DNA of 64,000 nucleotides from Sphingobacteriaceae bacterium (lineage in GTDB: Bacteria > Bacteroidota > Bacteroidia > Sphingobacteriales > Sphingobacteriaceae): NCBI GenBank assembly GCA_029266635.1, contig JAQSWM010000004.1, positions 310,001 through 374,000 on the forward strand, written 5' to 3'. The notes under the pieces were generated by a model. It did not search any database, had not been told where the DNA came from, and saw nothing but the letters and a program-made list of their open reading frames with translations. Each line of letters opens with the position of its first letter. Position 1 is the stretch's first letter. Of this stretch, positions 37,279 through 47,378 are shown one piece after another. Position numbers and translations under genes: made by a program.

Positions 37279-37675
37279 TTTTTTAGAAAACGTACGGCAG
37301 TAATCCTTTCATTCTGCAGTCCCGCTATTAGCTCATACTGCTGCACCTGTCCCGCAAGGCTTTCGGGAGGCCTTAGGCGGAGGCCGGTATCCGCTGCTAT
37401 CGGGTTTAATCAAGTTGGGCTTGAGCTGATACAGGCGAAGCATTCGCGAACCATTAAGGACTCGTTACAAACGAGCGCAAAACCAACGCAACGATTCAGT
37501 TATCACCGACAGTATTTGTATCTTAGAAAAAATATACGGCACTGTCGAAATGTGGTGCTTATATCCCCACCAATTAGGTGTATTGGCAACTATTGAGGTG
37601 CACATATCCCCAAGTTAGCGACAACTTTAACACGACAATAACGACTACACATTAACCCAAAAATATATTGACAAG
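37279..37675 (+). other. Gene-free leader of the AAA/DUF4435 cassette, with hairpins and direct repeats
   Basis: 397 bp without a gene. The left part (about 37310-37475) looks like a decayed G+C-rich intergenic repeat with several small hairpins and ends in the perfect hairpin CTCGTT-ACA-AACGAG at 37461-37475, related to the one after the cassette. Inverted arms CGACAGT (37507-37513) and ACTGTCG (37541-37547) follow. Two 16-bp direct repeats, GGTGCTTATATCCCCA (37554-37569) and GGTGCACATATCCCCA (37597-37612), differ in two bases and are 43 bp apart, a plausible operator. No clear TAnnTTTG box was found. Confidence 0.5.
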
Positions 37676-39070
37676 ATGAAAATCAAAAAAATAAAAATAA
37701 GAAAGCTATATGGCTTCATGGATAAAGATATTGAATTCAAAAACAACATATCAATTCTGGTTGGTATAAATGGTTCGGGAAAGACAAGTGTCTTAAATTT
37801 AATTAACTGGCTCTTAAAACCTAACATCGGTGAATTATGTCAAATAGAATTTGAGAGTATAACGCTGGATTTCAACTATAAAAATGATGATTACATGCTT
37901 GTTTGTGCTCAGAATAAAGTTGAAATTACTTTCAATCTGGAAAACCTATCGAAAAAGAAGAAATTTAATCAAATACAAGCGACTTTCAAAACACATCCTA
38001 AGAAACTCACAAAAAACGAACAGCTTAAGGAAGCAATTGGCGATGCTTATGACGGGTTAGGTCCAGAAGAACATGAAAGGGAAACTTGGGCATTTTTATT
38101 TGGAGAATTACCAAAACCTATTGTAATCGGACTAGACAGAAACTTGTATACGGAAGAGGGACAAGAAATACGGTTTCAAACTGAAATATTATCGAATGAT
38201 AAAAAAAGAGCATTTCGAAGAGAAAGACCCAATAATTATTCACCTCTCAGCAAAGTAAAACAACTATTAAGTCAGGAACACAACATTTACAGGAATAAAA
38301 TCCTGCAATTATACAGTTCGCTCAATGAAAAAATAATGCTTTCTGCTTTTGATAAAATATTTACGAAAACAAATATTGCTACACTTCTTAAAGAACCTAA
38401 ACCAACAGTAAGTGCAATAGATATTTTAAAAGAGCAGGTTGTAAATTTTTTACGAGAGAATCAAACTATAAAACCAAATAAAAAGGCAACAAGTATAAAC
38501 GTTTCAATTAAAAAGGTTAATAACTACTTCGATACATTAAAATCTATTCTAAAGCAAACTAAAAGTGGTAAGGAGGAACAAGATTTATTATACATTACAA
38601 ATATTAGTCAATTTAAAAAGATTAATGATTTAGTCGTAGAGTTTAAAAACTTTGAAACAGACACTCAGAAATTGTATTTCCCACTAAAAGATTTTTTAGA
38701 TACGATAAATAAATTTCTGATTGATTCATCGAAGCAAATATATTTTGACAAAGAGAGTTCAGAAGTAAAATTCAATATCCTTGACAAAAACGACCATAAA
38801 ATAGACGATAATAGAGACATTAAAAATCTATCTTCTGGGGAAAAACAAATTCTGATCTTGTTGACGTATATCAAATACAATAGCAATTTAAATGTATTCA
38901 TAATTGATGAACCAGAACTTTCATTACATCCCAAATGGCAGGCAGAGTTTCTTGAAGCGGTAGAGAAGCTGATGCCAAAAGATTCACAATTGATAATAGC
39001 CACCCATTCTCCCGAAATTATTGGCGACAAGAAAGAATTTTGTCAGGTTCTACTCCCTTATAATTCATAA
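37676..39070 (+). CDS. ABC-type AAA ATPase, AriA-like component of a PARIS defence system
   Basis: 464 aa, OLD/Rad50-like ATPase. Walker A is GINGSGKT at residues 30-37. An insertion of about 330 residues, helical and lysine-rich, separates it from the signature LSSGEKQ (385-391), Walker B VFIIDEPE (407-414), D-loop LSLHP and switch His444 in ATHSPEI. In PARIS, AriA forms an ATP-bound assembly that holds the toxin AriB until a phage anti-restriction protein such as Ocr is sensed. Here the partner gene with a DUF4435 domain begins 2 bp after the stop. Codons are clearly A/T-richer than in neighbouring genes, a sign of acquisition. An OLD-family or Septu-like ATPase is the alternative. Confidence 0.8.
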   Translation: MKIKKIKIRKLYGFMDKDIEFKNNISILVGINGSGKTSVLNLINWLLKPNIGELCQIEFESITLDFNYKNDDYMLVCAQNKVEITFNLENLSKKKKFNQIQATFKTHPKKLTKNEQLKEAIGDAYDGLGPEEHERETWAFLFGELPKPIVIGLDRNLYTEEGQEIRFQTEILSNDKKRAFRRERPNNYSPLSKVKQLLSQEHNIYRNKILQLYSSLNEKIMLSAFDKIFTKTNIATLLKEPKPTVSAIDILKEQVVNFLRENQTIKPNKKATSINVSIKKVNNYFDTLKSILKQTKSGKEEQDLLYITNISQFKKINDLVVEFKNFETDTQKLYFPLKDFLDTINKFLIDSSKQIYFDKESSEVKFNILDKNDHKIDDNRDIKNLSSGEKQILILLTYIKYNSNLNVFIIDEPELSLHPKWQAEFLEAVEKLMPKDSQLIIATHSPEIIGDKKEFCQVLLPYNS

Positions 39071-39072
39071 GC

Positions 39073-39936
39073 ATGATAAGTATAGAGGATAGTCTACCGA
39101 AAAGAGGAAAGCGGTATTTAAAGGGTCAAGACATAGTTTGGACTCAATTCAATGACATCAACTTTTATGTTGAAGACATTGAACAAGAAAATTTTTATTT
39201 TGAAATACTGAAAAAACTATTTCCTGATATAAAATTTGAGCGAATTTTCCCATTGGGAGGAAAGCCTAATGTTTTTACCGAAGCCGCTTTAAACATTGGA
39301 AACAAAAAGAAAGTCTATTTGGTTGACCTTGACTTTGATGAAATATTAAATAATAAAAATTGCACGGATAATGTTTTTTACTTAGAAAAGTATAGCATTG
39401 AAAATTACCTATTAGACCTCAATGCAATAAGGAAAATAATAATCGAGGAACGGCCAAAAATTAAACACCAAGAAATTGATAATTTATTTGATATAAACTT
39501 GTTTTATAACGAATGCCAATCGCTTTTTTCAGATTTAATATGCTACTACCTTACGATTCAAGAACACGAATTAGGCATCGAAAATGTAAAATGTGATACT
39601 GCACGGTTTTGCAACTTTAATGTAACTCCAGCTACCATAAATAATCAGCAAATCAATAATTACCATTTACAAATAGAAGCGGCTCTTCGAGCAAAAAATG
39701 CAAGACTTAAACTATCGACTCAGGTAAATAAATACAAAAAATATTTCAGGACAGTACAAGACGCACTTAAACATATACCAGGTAAATATTTATTAAACTT
39801 TGTAAAATATCGAATTGAACATTTATTCAATTTAGCACAAATGACACTTGAATCTTTCTCATTTAGGCTTGCGAAAAATGGCGAATTATTAGATTTAGTC
39901 TTTTTAAAACAACGTGTTACAAATTATATACAATAG
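39073..39936 (+). CDS. DUF4435/TOPRIM nuclease-like protein, AriB-like toxin of a PARIS defence system
   Basis: 287 aa, no signal peptide. The DUF4435 pattern is plain: FYVEDIEQENFYFEIL with the TOPRIM glutamate Glu34, then VYLVDLDFDE with Asp85/Asp87/Asp89, followed by the diagnostic YSIENYLL at 107-114. The rest is helical with many basic residues. In described PARIS systems AriB is released by AriA and acts as a tRNA-directed nuclease that stops growth. The gene starts 2 bp after the ATPase gene and shares its A+T-rich codon use. The exact target is inferred only from the family. Confidence 0.8.
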   Translation: MISIEDSLPKRGKRYLKGQDIVWTQFNDINFYVEDIEQENFYFEILKKLFPDIKFERIFPLGGKPNVFTEAALNIGNKKKVYLVDLDFDEILNNKNCTDNVFYLEKYSIENYLLDLNAIRKIIIEERPKIKHQEIDNLFDINLFYNECQSLFSDLICYYLTIQEHELGIENVKCDTARFCNFNVTPATINNQQINNYHLQIEAALRAKNARLKLSTQVNKYKKYFRTVQDALKHIPGKYLLNFVKYRIEHLFNLAQMTLESFSFRLAKNGELLDLVFLKQRVTNYIQ

Positions 39937-43168: not shown

Positions 43169-43314
43169 AGCTAGCGCAAGGTTCGCAAATCTATCTTCTA
43201 CAGCAATTCTGCTGAAAATCCACTTTTTTAAAATTTTTTGAAATCTTCATGTTCACATCATCTTGCCGTATGTTCTTTGTACAGTGAATTAAACAAATAC
43301 TAAAGACAACGAAC

Positions 43315-43989
43315 ATGAAAACTACACTAATGACCGCAGCCGCTCTATTATTTACAGCTGCTGCATTTGCACAAACATCAGATAAAACCAAAACTAATCA
43401 TGGTACAACAGTAAGCACAGCTGCGAAATCGACAACAGATGCCGATGTAAAAGGCGCTGAGGTTAGCGGTGTTGCTTCCTCAAAAGCACAGGCCGACTTG
43501 GATAGAAAAGATGCTGAGGTAAAAGACAAAGCTGCACGCAAGGCACGCAAAGCGAAAGAGGATGTTGCTGAAGCAGCCAATGGCGCCGCTGAAGCTACAC
43601 ACGGAACAGTAGTAAGCACTGCAGCAAAAACAACAACCGATGCAGATGTGAAAGGTTCTGAGATCAGTGCTATTGCTTCTTCAAAATCGCAGGCAGATTT
43701 GCACCGCAAAAATTCCGATGAAGCTCGTGCCGATAAAGATGCATTGAAAGATGAGCGCAAGGCTCTGAAAGATGCTGCTAAAGCTGATGCAGATGTTTCT
43801 GTAGGCGATGACAATGTAAATGTTGATGCGAAAGTTGCAGCTAAAGCACGCAAGGAAGCTCGCAAAGCCGACGCGAAAGCAAAAGATCACACCAGGATAA
43901 AAGGCGATGCCAAAGTTGGTGCTGATGTAGGCGTTGGACGTACAAAAGTTAAAACTAACGTGGGTGGAGGCTTAAAATTAGGCCTGTAA
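43315..43989 (+). CDS. Low-complexity, highly charged exported protein with an internal duplication (LEA-like)
   Basis: 224 aa. Signal peptide MKTTLMTAAALLFTAAAFAQ. The mature chain is almost entirely Ala, Lys, Asp, Ser and Thr. A block of about 36 residues, starting HGTTVSTAAKSTTDADVKG and ending ASSKAQADLDRKDAE, occurs again after about 65 residues as HGTVVSTAAKTTTDADVKG ... ASSKSQADLHRKNSDE. The C-terminal part has DAKAKDHTR and ends in a glycine-rich tail. The composition recalls group-3 LEA or other desiccation-type proteins; a role in periplasmic protection is a guess. A strong terminator hairpin follows at 44010. Confidence 0.65.
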   Translation: MKTTLMTAAALLFTAAAFAQTSDKTKTNHGTTVSTAAKSTTDADVKGAEVSGVASSKAQADLDRKDAEVKDKAARKARKAKEDVAEAANGAAEATHGTVVSTAAKTTTDADVKGSEISAIASSKSQADLHRKNSDEARADKDALKDERKALKDAAKADADVSVGDDNVNVDAKVAAKARKEARKADAKAKDHTRIKGDAKVGADVGVGRTKVKTNVGGGLKLGL

Positions 43990-44009
43990 CGCCCCTCACT
44001 ATAAAGCCG

Positions 44010-44053
44010 GGAAGGTTTGCCTCTGTGATTCGGGGCAAACTTTCCTTAATTTT
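44010..44053 (+). terminator. Terminator hairpin after the LEA-like gene
   Basis: The 14-nt arms 44010-44023 and 44032-44045 pair with two G-U wobbles over an 8-nt loop, followed by TTAATTTT. It ends 14 nt before the next ATG (44060), and its T tract overlaps a promoter-like box. Confidence 0.75.
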
Positions 44054-44054
44054 G
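44047..44054 (+). promoter_or_regulatory. -7 box (TAATTTTG) overlapping the terminator tail, start of the 44060 operon
   Basis: TAATTTTG matches TAnnTTTG exactly and leaves 5 nt to the ATG at 44060. A transcript from here would be leaderless. No TTTG at -33 is visible; that region is the terminator stem. Confidence 0.4.
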
Positions 44055-44059
44055 TCAGA

Positions 44060-44434
44060 ATGAAACAGGGTATTTCGAAGTGGGTTGGAGCAGTGTTATT
44101 TGCCGTTGCGATGCCGATGTTTGCCAGTGCAGATTCCGGTCCGGGCAAGGAACGTTCGGATGTAGCAGTGCTTGTAAGTACCGATCATGTACAGGAATCC
44201 GGTATTCAGGACGATAAGGATAAGAAGAAGACGAAAGATAAGGACGCCAAAGCTGCGGCCGAGGATGCCAAAAAAGATGCAGGCACCAAAACTGCCGCTA
44301 CTGCAAAACCGGATATAAAGGAGGTGCCAAAGGCACGCCCCAAGCTTCGCCCTGCTGCAGTTGCTGATAAGATTAAAGTTAAAAAGGTTCCCGTTAAAGT
44401 GAAACCTAAGCTTATCCGTTCAATCGGACTTTAA
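44060..44434 (+). CDS. Unrecognised exported Lys/Ala/Asp-rich protein
   Basis: 124 aa with a signal peptide (WVGAVLFAVAMPMFASA). The mature part is low complexity: DDKDKKKTKDKDAKAAAEDAKKDAG, then a Pro/Lys/Val-rich tail (KVKKVPVKVKPKLIRSIGL). Its Lys/Asp/Ala bias is close to that of the preceding LEA-like protein. It is the first gene of a tight run with the beta-barrel-type protein (13 bp), the response regulator (3 bp) and the kinase (45 bp), so it may be a target or accessory part of that two-component system. Confidence 0.6.
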   Translation: MKQGISKWVGAVLFAVAMPMFASADSGPGKERSDVAVLVSTDHVQESGIQDDKDKKKTKDKDAKAAAEDAKKDAGTKTAATAKPDIKEVPKARPKLRPAAVADKIKVKKVPVKVKPKLIRSIGL

Positions 44435-44447
44435 ACACTCATCAACC

Positions 44448-45329
44448 ATGAAACCGTACCTGATCTTGTCTTTGTTGCTCGGTGTGGCAGCATCGGCTAT
44501 GGGCCAGGAAAAGAGGGCTGAAACCGCAGTTGATACTGTGGAGAAGGCAAAAACTTCTTTGAACCTGGCTACCATATACGCCAACAACGCTAACTACTAT
44601 GGCCAAACTTCTGCCGACAGGCTTCCATATGTTCTTGGATATGCATCATTAAACTTTCCGGGAGGCTTTTATCTTGCCGGCGGAGCTTACAAATTGATAA
44701 ATCTCGGCTCGGGAATTTCGGGCATCGACTTGTCTGCCGGCTATGATTTCAAATTAGCAAAACAACTGTCCGGCAACGTGAGCTTTAGCCACTCGTTCTT
44801 TCCGGATAGCTCACTCCTGCTGCAGTCAACCAACCCGGACATGGCTTCGGCATCTCTGGAATATGACTGGAATGTAGTGAAAACCGGTCTCACAGCTGAT
44901 TACGCCATCGGCGATGAAAATGCGCTGTTTGCAACGTTCAACGTATCGAAATCTATTGATCTTGGCAGCCTGTTCAGTCCTAAGGATTATATCAGTTTTG
45001 ATCCGGCTGTTGAAGTAGTGGGCGGAACCCAGCGGATTACCACCACAGAAGAAATGCCATCTACAACAACTAATGGCAACGGCAATGGTAAAAAGTTTCT
45101 GTTTCTTCCCCTGCCTTCTTCTTCAAAAACATCAGCGCCTCAGTACAGGCAGGTAACGTCTTCCAGCTTCGACCTGTTGTCTTACAATATCAAGCTGCCC
45201 ATCTCTTACAACCGGGCGAACTATGCCATAGAAGCTACCTATCAGGGCTCTGTTCTGGGAAAAAAAGTAGAAGGCTATACCAATAAGCTAAATTCTTTCT
45301 TTTATTTGGGACTTTATTACTCGTTCTAA
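44448..45329 (+). CDS. Probable outer-membrane beta-barrel protein
   Basis: 293 aa, signal peptide MKPYLILSLLLGVAASAMGQ. The mature chain alternates polar and aromatic residues in short strands (GYASLNFPGGFYLAGGAYKLI, GIDLSAGYDFKLAKQLSGNVSFSHSFF) and ends with aromatic FYLGLYYSF. Ending a chain in Phe after such strands is the usual insertion signal for outer-membrane barrels. No specific family is recognised. It precedes the response-regulator gene by 3 bp, so the sensor pair at 45333-47378 may monitor or control it. Confidence 0.68.
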   Translation: MKPYLILSLLLGVAASAMGQEKRAETAVDTVEKAKTSLNLATIYANNANYYGQTSADRLPYVLGYASLNFPGGFYLAGGAYKLINLGSGISGIDLSAGYDFKLAKQLSGNVSFSHSFFPDSSLLLQSTNPDMASASLEYDWNVVKTGLTADYAIGDENALFATFNVSKSIDLGSLFSPKDYISFDPAVEVVGGTQRITTTEEMPSTTTNGNGNGKKFLFLPLPSSSKTSAPQYRQVTSSSFDLLSYNIKLPISYNRANYAIEATYQGSVLGKKVEGYTNKLNSFFYLGLYYSF

Positions 45330-45332
45330 AAC

Positions 45333-46007
45333 GTGAAAGCCCTACTAATTGAGGATGAAAAAACGCTGGCTTATGAGATAGAAGCTTTCCTGAAGAAAGC
45401 TTTCTACATCTGCGACCTGGCGCATAATGCCCGACAGGGTTTTGAAAAGCTGGAGGATACCCAGTATGATTTCGTGCTGCTGGATTTGGGGCTGCCAGAT
45501 AGAGATGGCTTTGTGCTGCTGGAAAAAGGCAAGAAAGCTCATCCCGAAACAGCATTCATCATCATCACAGCCCGGGGAAATGTGGATGACCGTGTGCGGG
45601 GCCTGAACATGGGCGCCGACGATTATCTCACTAAACCCTTCTCTCTCCTCGAACTCGAAGCCCGAATGCAAGCCATTTCCCGCCGAAAATCAGGCATCAA
45701 CACGCAACTGATCGATCTTGGAGAGTTCAAAGTCGACATTCAGAAACGCATGGTTTCTTACGGAGATGTTGACATAGACCTCACTCGCAAAGAATTTGAT
45801 GTACTAAGCTATTTGTTGCTCCATAAAAATCGCGTGCTTACACGCCTTCAGTTGAGCGAACATATCTGGGGCAGCTTTGCCGATGACGATTTCGACTCCA
45901 ACTACATAGACGTTCACATTAAAAATCTGAGAAAGAAACTTGTCGCTCACGCGGGCGTAGAATGGCTGGAGACCGTCCGCGGCGTGGGCTACCGCATACG
46001 GAAGTGA
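45333..46007 (+). CDS. OmpR/PhoB-family response regulator
   Basis: 224 aa, start GTG at 45333, 3 bp after the stop of the barrel gene. The receiver domain has LLIEDEKTLAYEI, phospho-acceptor Asp51 in FVLLDLGLPDRDG, FIIITARG and GADDYLTKPF. The winged helix at about 125-224 has LTRKEFDVLSYLLLHKNRVLTRLQLSEHIWG and YIDVHIKNLRKKL...VRGVGYRIRK, a full OmpR output domain. Partner of the kinase encoded 45 bp downstream. Confidence 0.95.
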   Translation: MKALLIEDEKTLAYEIEAFLKKAFYICDLAHNARQGFEKLEDTQYDFVLLDLGLPDRDGFVLLEKGKKAHPETAFIIITARGNVDDRVRGLNMGADDYLTKPFSLLELEARMQAISRRKSGINTQLIDLGEFKVDIQKRMVSYGDVDIDLTRKEFDVLSYLLLHKNRVLTRLQLSEHIWGSFADDDFDSNYIDVHIKNLRKKLVAHAGVEWLETVRGVGYRIRK

Positions 46008-46052
46008 GGCGCAAAATGGCGCAGGGGCTAAATCATTGCATAAACTGAAGCT

Positions 46053-47378
46053 TTGAAACTTTCTACCAAGCTTACACTCTTTGTTTCGCTCTCTAAACTG
46101 GCAATCATCCTGGTGTTTGTGTTGGCTTTGCCCTTTGCGGTGGACTATATTTCTTCCCGGTACACAGACAACGTCCTGAGGCAGCAGAAGAAAAAGGTGT
46201 TGCGTGAGATCAAGGAGAAGGGCGTCGACTACTACCTGGATGGGCAGGAAAGCTACGGGAGTTACACGCTTTTACGCGAAGAGTTCATCGCCCTTGAGCC
46301 TGCCGAAAGCCCTGTCAATTTAGATACCATCGCCACCGCCAAGCGGATTATTGAACAGGATACGCTCAGGTACCGGATATTGAGCCACACATTCAATGCG
46401 GGCGGCAAGCGATACGTATTGGAAGTCGCACGGGCAACTTCTGTGATGGGCCAATACAGCCGGCCACTACAATACTTCGCATTTTATGCATTACTGGCGC
46501 TTCTTGCCCTCACCGTGGTTGTCGATCTGATGGTGACGCACAAGCTCATCCAGCCGCTCAAAGCCATCATCAGCCAGAAGCTCGTCAATCAGAAATTCCC
46601 TTTCGCCGCCAGGCAAGAGCCTATAGAAACCTCCACTGAAGATTTTCAATACCTCGATCATTCGCTCATCTTGCTAATGGATCAGATAAATGAGGCTTTC
46701 GAAAAGGAACGTGAATTTACAGCGAATGCGTCGCACGAGCTAATGACTCCCATCAGCATCCTTCAGAGCAAGATCGAAAACCTGATGGAGAACACGGAGG
46801 TGACAGACCATGTGCATCAAAAGCTCAATGAACTGATGCGGACCCTGAACAGGCTGAAGAAAATCGTGAATTCGCTGTTGCTTATCTCGCGGATAGACAA
46901 TGAACAATTCAGCAGGAATGATGAGGTGAGCGTTAAGCCACTGATTACAGACATCATGGAGGAAATCAGCCACCGGCTGGAAGAAAAACAAATCAGCTTT
47001 AGCGCCGATTTTAAGCACAAGATCGAGCTACAAAATGTAAACGCTGATCTTCTGTTTCAGATGTTTTACAACCTGATTAACAATGCAATCAAGTACAACA
47101 AACCTGGTGGCAGCATCACCGTGCGGGATGAGTACAAGGTTGATAACTATTCGGTAGTGATCAAGGATACGGGTATCGGGATTCCTGAAGAGGATCTCCC
47201 CTCCATTTTCAACCGGTTTAAGAAGTCAAATCTTTCAGAAGCGGGCGGATACGGACTTGGGTTGGCTATTGTGAAAAGCATTGCCGGTTATCACCACATC
47301 AAACTGGATGTTGCGTCGGCGGTTGGGCAAGGGACCACGATAACCGTTGTTTTTGCAGAAGAATCGGTGAAAGGCTAA
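46053..47378 (+). CDS. Two-component sensor histidine kinase
   Basis: 441 aa, start TTG at 46053; no better in-frame ATG precedes the first helix. TM1 (LTLFVSLSKLAIILVFVLALPFAVDYI) and TM2 (YFAFYALLALLALTVVVDLMV) enclose a periplasmic sensor of about 110 residues. The transmitter has H-box FTANASHELMTPISIL, N-box MFYNLINNAIKYNKP, DTGIGIPEEDL, F-box FNRFKKS and GYGLGLAIVKSIA. A classic EnvZ/PhoR-like layout paired with the upstream OmpR regulator. Its last 4 bp overlap the convergent gmhB gene. Confidence 0.94.
   Translation: MKLSTKLTLFVSLSKLAIILVFVLALPFAVDYISSRYTDNVLRQQKKKVLREIKEKGVDYYLDGQESYGSYTLLREEFIALEPAESPVNLDTIATAKRIIEQDTLRYRILSHTFNAGGKRYVLEVARATSVMGQYSRPLQYFAFYALLALLALTVVVDLMVTHKLIQPLKAIISQKLVNQKFPFAARQEPIETSTEDFQYLDHSLILLMDQINEAFEKEREFTANASHELMTPISILQSKIENLMENTEVTDHVHQKLNELMRTLNRLKKIVNSLLLISRIDNEQFSRNDEVSVKPLITDIMEEISHRLEEKQISFSADFKHKIELQNVNADLLFQMFYNLINNAIKYNKPGGSITVRDEYKVDNYSVVIKDTGIGIPEEDLPSIFNRFKKSNLSEAGGYGLGLAIVKSIAGYHHIKLDVASAVGQGTTITVVFAEESVKG

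Follow-up and report, generated by a model that had tools for sequence, protein, structure and literature searches.

The locus described here occupies positions 43315 to 47378 of a 64-kb window (the whole stretch of DNA that was analysed, from contig JAQSWM010000004.1 of a Sphingobacteriaceae bacterium) and comprises five open reading frames (ORFs), all on the + strand. Two genes encoding exported low-complexity proteins, here called LEA1 (43315..43989, 224 aa) and LEA2 (44060..44434, 124 aa), are followed by those encoding a predicted beta-barrel outer-membrane protein (OMP; 44448..45329, 293 aa), an OmpR/PhoB-type response regulator (RR; 45333..46007, 224 aa, GTG start) and a membrane histidine kinase (HK; 46053..47378, 441 aa, TTG start). 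An earlier reading made from the DNA alone (the sequence-only reading) had described two exported K/A/D-rich proteins ahead of an outer-membrane-type protein and an OmpR/kinase pair, with gaps of 3-45 bp from 44060 on. Both points were confirmed: the ORFs are as described and the gaps are 13, 3 and 45 bp, while LEA1 and LEA2 are separated by 70 bp.

The RR contains the Pfam domains Response_reg and Trans_reg_C, and the HK contains HisKA and HATPase_c. The presumed phospho-acceptor D51 of the RR and H228 of the HK (in NASHELMTP) are invariant, being retained in 12/12 aligned sequences. By its domains and key residues the pair is classified as a two-component system (TCS) of the OmpR/PhoB family, again as the sequence-only reading had it. 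The best NCBIfam family for the HK was PorY (NF052314), with 250 bits against a cut-off of 350. This model matched 50 times in the genome, in no case above the cut-off, and membership of the PorY family was ruled out for the HK at that threshold. The nearest NCBIfam model for the RR was PmrA (NF007928), with 190.6 bits against a cut-off of 330, and the PmrA equivalog was likewise rejected. PmrA targets also differ from the targets predicted here. The periplasmic domain of the HK is predicted at about residues 35-135. It was barely probed by structure comparison because matches to the catalytic domain filled the comparison, at least one fifth of the rows spanning only residues 187-441.

The protein encoded at 44448 had no match in Pfam or NCBIfam at E<=1. 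AlphaFold2 predicted a beta-barrel (mean pLDDT 75, pTM 0.66), and the model weakly resembled many porins. Its matches in the PDB were the generic barrels VhGalP, OmpG, KdgM and PcoB, with TM scores by query length of 0.41-0.46; therefore, no substrate is claimed.

The signal peptides of LEA1, LEA2 and the OMP were assigned by eye, with cleavage judged to fall between AFA and Q, ASA and D, and AMG and Q. Mature LEA1 is composed of 21% A, 15% K and 12% D and contains no F, W, Y, C or P, and mature LEA2 is composed of 22% K, 14% A and 12% D and contains no F, W, Y or C. Both proteins had slightly negative FoldIndex values (LEA1 -0.03, LEA2 -0.12) and were thus predicted to be unfolded, LEA1 barely. 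LEA1 carries an HGxxVSxxA repeat, and the 36-residue duplication noticed earlier was found at residues 29-64 and 96-131, with 28/36 identical residues against a maximum of 15 among 100 shuffles. The conserved part of LEA2 is a basic, Pro-containing polycationic tail (PDIKEVPKARPKLRPAAV...). The last 45 residues had a net charge of +8 to +14 in 11/11 aligned sequences, and this charge was kept although the sequence drifts.

The two proteins resemble LEA proteins in being hydrophilic, Lys/Ala/Asp-rich and predicted unfolded, and the sequence-only reading had likened them to desiccation-protection proteins. They differ from LEA proteins in being exported and in family relationship. None of the LEA families of Pfam matched LEA1 or LEA2 at E<=1. 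LEA_4-type proteins have an 11-residue amphipathic repeat; the charge autocorrelation of LEA1 over lags 3-15 gave no clear peak, with lag 11 (0.10) below lag 7 (0.14). Membership of the LEA family was excluded on these two grounds, and together with the nature of the conserved LEA2 tail they speak against the desiccation reading.

The linkage of these genes was analyzed among genomes of the same family. The OMP query matched in 14/60 genomes and the LEA1 query in 5/60, the own genome counted in both. Among 15 wider stretches around the OMP matches, 11 had OMP, RR and HK in the same order, the others being L030, L039, L040 and L041. LEA2 was present in all of these 11 (ten as rows of alignment A1, L038 by profile), and in four of them (L027, L028, L029 and L034) it was preceded by LEA1. 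In genome G028, LEA1-OMP (L030) occurs without LEA2, RR or HK, and LEA2-OMP-RR-HK (L031) is found elsewhere.

A profile built from the 11 LEA2 rows matched in 109/301 family genomes. We examined 100 matches beyond the loci already used, leaving out one weak match inside a 748-aa frame and treating L130 separately. In 99/100 matches, RR and HK followed LEA2 in the same orientation at no more than 4 kb, the exception being L254. An absence of any link between homologues and the two-component genes had been named in advance as the result that would count against the proposed module, and the opposite was observed.

The full set analyzed consisted of 113 loci (these 100 matches, 11 relative loci, L129 and L130). 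The order LEA2-OMP-RR-HK was found in 96/113, nine of them with LEA1 by profile, and in one further locus the OMP frame is split in two. Nine of the 113 (eight among the 99, and L130) are arranged as LEA2-RR-HK without OMP, the RR lying no more than 20 bp from LEA2. Because these nine keep LEA2 with RR and HK, LEA2 appears to be tied to the TCS and not to the barrel. In another five, about 900 bp precede the RR, probably holding an OMP gene for which the longest frame begins within LEA2. L254 has no partner at all. L129, the own genome's third PorY-like pair, lacks LEA2 and was used as an internal contrast. The second copy in the own genome (L130, on G000:C5) is arranged as PepSY_like-LEA2-RR-HK without a barrel, with a weaker form (12.3) of the promoter box described below ahead of the PepSY_like gene. 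LEA1 and LEA2 are not equivalent: LEA2 is a near-constant partner of the TCS, and LEA1 has homologues in 16/301 family genomes.

The gene upstream of LEA2, on the same strand or divergent, was more often related to ApbE (52 ORFs) or DUF4382 (38 ORFs) than to LEA1. The ApbE assignment refers to a cluster of 52 upstream ORFs with Pfam run on one member. In Mucilaginibacter loci the ApbE-family (flavin transferase) gene, for example L037:2371-3315, lies under the same box as LEA2.

Stand-alone relatives of LEA1 were detected in genus g21 (L315, L316/L329, L319 and L321). Some of them contain loops that look by eye like EF-hands (DVNQDGxFSPEE); Pfam found no EF-hand in L315 or L321, the two tested. 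The system might conceivably be linked to calcium.

To assess the reach within the phylum, loci from named genomes were taken from the best 80 of 549 RR relatives in one scan. Within these 80, LEA2-OMP-RR-HK was recognised by profile in Pedobacter, Daejeonella, Mucilaginibacter, Chitinophaga, Niastella, Flavihumibacter, Ferruginibacter, Niabella and Sphingobacterium, and in Rufibacter glacialis (L071) together with LEA1. In Rufibacter roseus and three Pontibacter loci, all Hymenobacteraceae (L089, L092, L097 and L099), LEA1 and LEA2 are fused in one frame, in which LEA1-type repeats and a LEA2-like motif (VKEVAT...) were seen by eye. Five Bacteroidales bins (L083, L086, L090, L091 and L093) have a small exported R/P/G-rich protein in the LEA2 position, also judged by eye; these proteins are too diverged for the profile, except marginally L083. 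The arrangement thus extends to Chitinophagaceae, Hymenobacteraceae and, in a more diverged form recognised by eye, Bacteroidales. In a midpoint-rooted kinase tree of 75 rows, a strongly supported branch separated 48 rows, each with LEA2 by profile, from 27 others, of which two had LEA2 by profile and several more by eye. A basic exported ORF was located upstream in 35/56 close RR-HK loci vs 0/15 more distant ones, using a crude filter that misses many profile-confirmed LEA2 genes.

Ahead of the operon, a direct repeat of the form TTTCATSTTnn-TTTCATSTT abuts a -7 promoter box. In the window this predicted RR-binding box and -7 element lie at 43246..43279 (+) (TTCATGTTCACATCATCTTGCCGTATGTTCTTTG), with tandem half-sites 11 bp apart and TTTG ending the -7 box. 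Such a spacing of tandem half-sites is the usual layout in the OmpR family. The exact pattern TTTCATN5TTTCAT was present in 36/111 LEA2 upstream regions, many of them from close relatives, vs zero in 10 rounds of single-base shuffles. A position weight matrix (PWM) was built from 33 distinct sites. At a threshold of >=12 it found a site in 44/56 named loci (those with RR, HK and enough upstream sequence), vs 0.8% of trials for the 21 controls (20 permuted matrices and the reversed one, which scored in 2/56). Leaving out the eight Pedobacter loci because of a possible overlap with the training set gave 36/48. The box precedes whichever gene comes first, whether LEA1, LEA2, DUF4382, ApbE, PepSY-like or the fusion.

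The consensus was derived from 185 distinct sites scoring >=14. In 95% of these, G follows TTT at a position outside the matrix. In this phylum, promoters have TAnnTTTG as their -7 box, spanning -12 to -5 (PMC9723704). The conserved G therefore identifies the element as this box, so that the repeats would fall at about -39 to -20, which would be the position of an activator. In the window, transcription is predicted to start at about 43284, 31 nt ahead of the LEA1 ATG. The window box has one mismatch to TTCATSTTN3TTCATSTTN11TTT and a PWM score of 14.2, the second best in the window; its departures from the consensus are A28 to T and the first T of the second half-site to A (reading ATCAT). A scan with the Sigma-70 consensus gave 8 sites vs 6.5 in shuffles.

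The box was also used to predict a regulon. In the own genome 19 sites with up to three mismatches were found vs 10 in the backward control, so only the two sites with one mismatch were taken seriously. One of them precedes the present operon, the other a gene for a DUF4382 lipoprotein (C16:51845). When the pattern was made stricter by adding the -7 box, it returned 38 sites in 24/101 genomes, with none in the backward control. DUF4382 genes follow 12 of the 38, ten of them beside a LEA2 operon and two elsewhere (own C16 and G011:C2:11230), and a looser DUF4382 site away from the operon was found in G020 (L303). Eight of the 38 precede LEA1 or LEA2, and two precede PepSY-like genes. The PepSY-like genes BT0922-23 belong to an iron stimulon according to the accessible part of PMC10434189, which we treat as a lead only. 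The remaining sites precede mixed genes or no evident gene, apart from two (L296 in G033 and L353 in G011) before small stand-alone receivers that look CheY-like in sequence; these could possibly form a further layer of the circuit. Judged by their N-termini, many other box targets encode exported proteins or lipoproteins. The stand-alone LEA1 relatives of genus g21 had the box at 3/4 places (L315, L316 and L319, not L321).

The spacer between LEA1 and LEA2 contains a terminator-like hairpin at 44009..44046 (+), with 15 pairs and a T-rich tail (TAATTTTGTC). The region has 10 terminator-like matches (7.0 expected), and this one is the longest. We folded 14 of 16 aligned LEA1-LEA2 spacers, leaving out L061 and L067. 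A hairpin was present in 14/14, with z-scores of -2.4 to -7.1 and 0-4 of 200 shuffles equally stable, and the stems differ in sequence between loci. The natural reading is a leaky terminator, which would give much LEA1 and little TCS.

Taken together, we consider it somewhat more probable than its opposite that the locus encodes an envelope-signalling system that regulates its own operon and has an exported accessory protein dedicated to it, resembling CpxP in role and not in sequence. Conservation, linkage and the box rest on comparison, and from them we infer regulation, feedback and a physiological role. Through its periplasmic domain of about 100 residues, the HK would sense some condition of the outer membrane or periplasm and phosphorylate the RR, as expected from family knowledge. 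The RR may then bind the two direct TTTCATSTT half-sites 11 bp apart, upstream of TAnnTTTG, and activate transcription. It would thereby raise its own operon together with DUF4382 and PepSY-like lipoproteins encoded beside the operon or elsewhere. The hairpin would stop most transcripts after LEA1, a fraction reading on into LEA2-OMP-RR-HK, so that LEA1 would be made in excess, presumably as the abundant effector of the same response. LEA2 would most likely feed the envelope state back to the HK, as CpxP does for CpxA, and its cationic tail might let it exchange between the HK and anionic surfaces of the envelope.

Two known systems offer parallels. In Escherichia coli, an OmpR-type TCS likewise has a small exported accessory protein, CpxP; LEA2 is encoded with such a TCS in 99/100 matches. 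CpxP binds CpxA, positive charges matter for the contact and high salt displaces CpxP, as stated in the available part of PMC4160245. LEA2 differs from CpxP in being of low complexity and without a Pfam relation to it, and the operon here also includes a beta-barrel and variable exported proteins. In Porphyromonas gingivalis, the exported PorA acts upstream of PorY; direct PorA-PorY contact was not detected according to the portion of PMC7712824 available. The HK of this locus is related to PorY and stays below the family cut-off, PorA is a folded surface protein, and the regulator here is of the DNA-binding OmpR type and encoded beside its kinase. With Response_reg and Trans_reg_C it is unlike the PorX-SigP route set out in that portion of PMC7712824; the comparison concerns the adjacent regulator, a distant PorX lying outside it. 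CpxP and PorA are precedents, not evidence of membership.

Several observations weigh against this interpretation. LEA2 was not seen in the close RR-HK pairs L070, L077 and L107, nor in the Hymenobacter loci L094, L095, L100 and L127. At the PWM threshold 12/56 named loci have no site. The box in the window itself is degenerate, with two mismatches to the stricter pattern, which therefore missed it, and a T-rich site at 37659-37698(-) outscores it by PWM (17.0). That site lies where an AAA gene begins on the opposite strand; it was discounted as probably due to chance. The T-rich tail refers to the window's hairpin, those of other species being recognised by fold alone. LEA2 is not a CpxP by sequence, the CpxP/Spy families of Pfam giving no match to it at E<=1. 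Contact between LEA2 and the HK is a proposal, and the structure comparison gave no fold for the HK sensor. Simple charge pairing between LEA2 and the sensor is unsupported since the sensor domains have net charges of +4 to -7 across 12 sequences; pairing with an acidic sensor was rejected, as the sensors are not consistently acidic.

The strongest competing explanation, which we regard as possible though rather doubtful, is that LEA1 and LEA2 are only effectors, a polyampholyte and a polycation that are induced by the TCS, coat, bridge or neutralise the charge of lipopolysaccharide or capsule, and send no signal back. The charge of the LEA2 tail, retained in 11/11 sequences despite sequence drift, would suit this role, as would the exported proteins and lipoproteins among the other box targets and the LEA1 relatives that stand alone with a box in genus g21. 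The place of LEA1 ahead of the hairpin is also that expected of an abundant product. However, LEA2 shares with the signalling genes a position downstream of the hairpin, and its linkage to RR and HK in 99/100 matches would be unusual for a plain effector. It is unlikely that LEA2 instead serves the barrel as a periplasmic helper or plug, with the TCS regulating both. The two genes are adjacent in 96/113 loci with a median gap of 15 bp, but nine loci keep LEA2-RR-HK without OMP, and the L030 copy has LEA1-OMP without LEA2 and TCS. Least likely, and very improbable, are exported LEA-type proteins shielding the periplasm in drying, freezing or salt, for which hydrophilic low-complexity composition and the link to a TCS could be cited, but which had no LEA model match, no clear 11-residue period and conservation in specific motifs rather than in composition alone.

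The accessory-protein reading can be extended to an as yet unnamed, phylum-wide Bacteroidota envelope stress system of a rank comparable to Cpx. Such a system would combine a PorY-related kinase and an OmpR-type regulator with a fixed promoter layout, in which the TTTCATSTT tandem box runs into TAnnTTTG, and its sensory ligand would be a disordered cationic protein that is secreted, in place of a folded accessory subunit. We put this wider proposal forward tentatively, with confidence below even. A disordered protein as kinase ligand would, if true, be mechanistically unusual. To our knowledge, envelope stress signalling in Bacteroidota is far less mapped than the enterobacterial Cpx, Rcs and SigmaE systems. 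The analysis yields a concrete operon with a binding site predicted to the base and an exported low-complexity protein dedicated to the system, along with a small predicted regulon that includes DUF4382 and PepSY-like proteins, lipoprotein families without established function. Culturable relatives, among them Pedobacter, Mucilaginibacter and Chitinophaga, would allow direct tests of the predictions.

No published description of the module was recognised in the literature on its components, in a search that lay mostly outside subscription papers. A term search of PMC2954215 found neither two-component nor histidine kinase nor response regulator. Of the undescribed periplasmic stress module proposed in the sequence-only reading, the module itself stands as real, conserved and tied to a TCS, and its desiccation part does not.

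A further gene pair of the window lies upstream of the operon. An AAA ATPase (37676-39070, +) is followed by an AriB-type protein (39073-39936, +). The best PADLOC models were AriA (1.5e-31) and AriB (1.1e-17), and the ATPase was also matched by the PtuA and GajA models. By these matches the pair at 37676-39936 looks like a PARIS anti-phage system.

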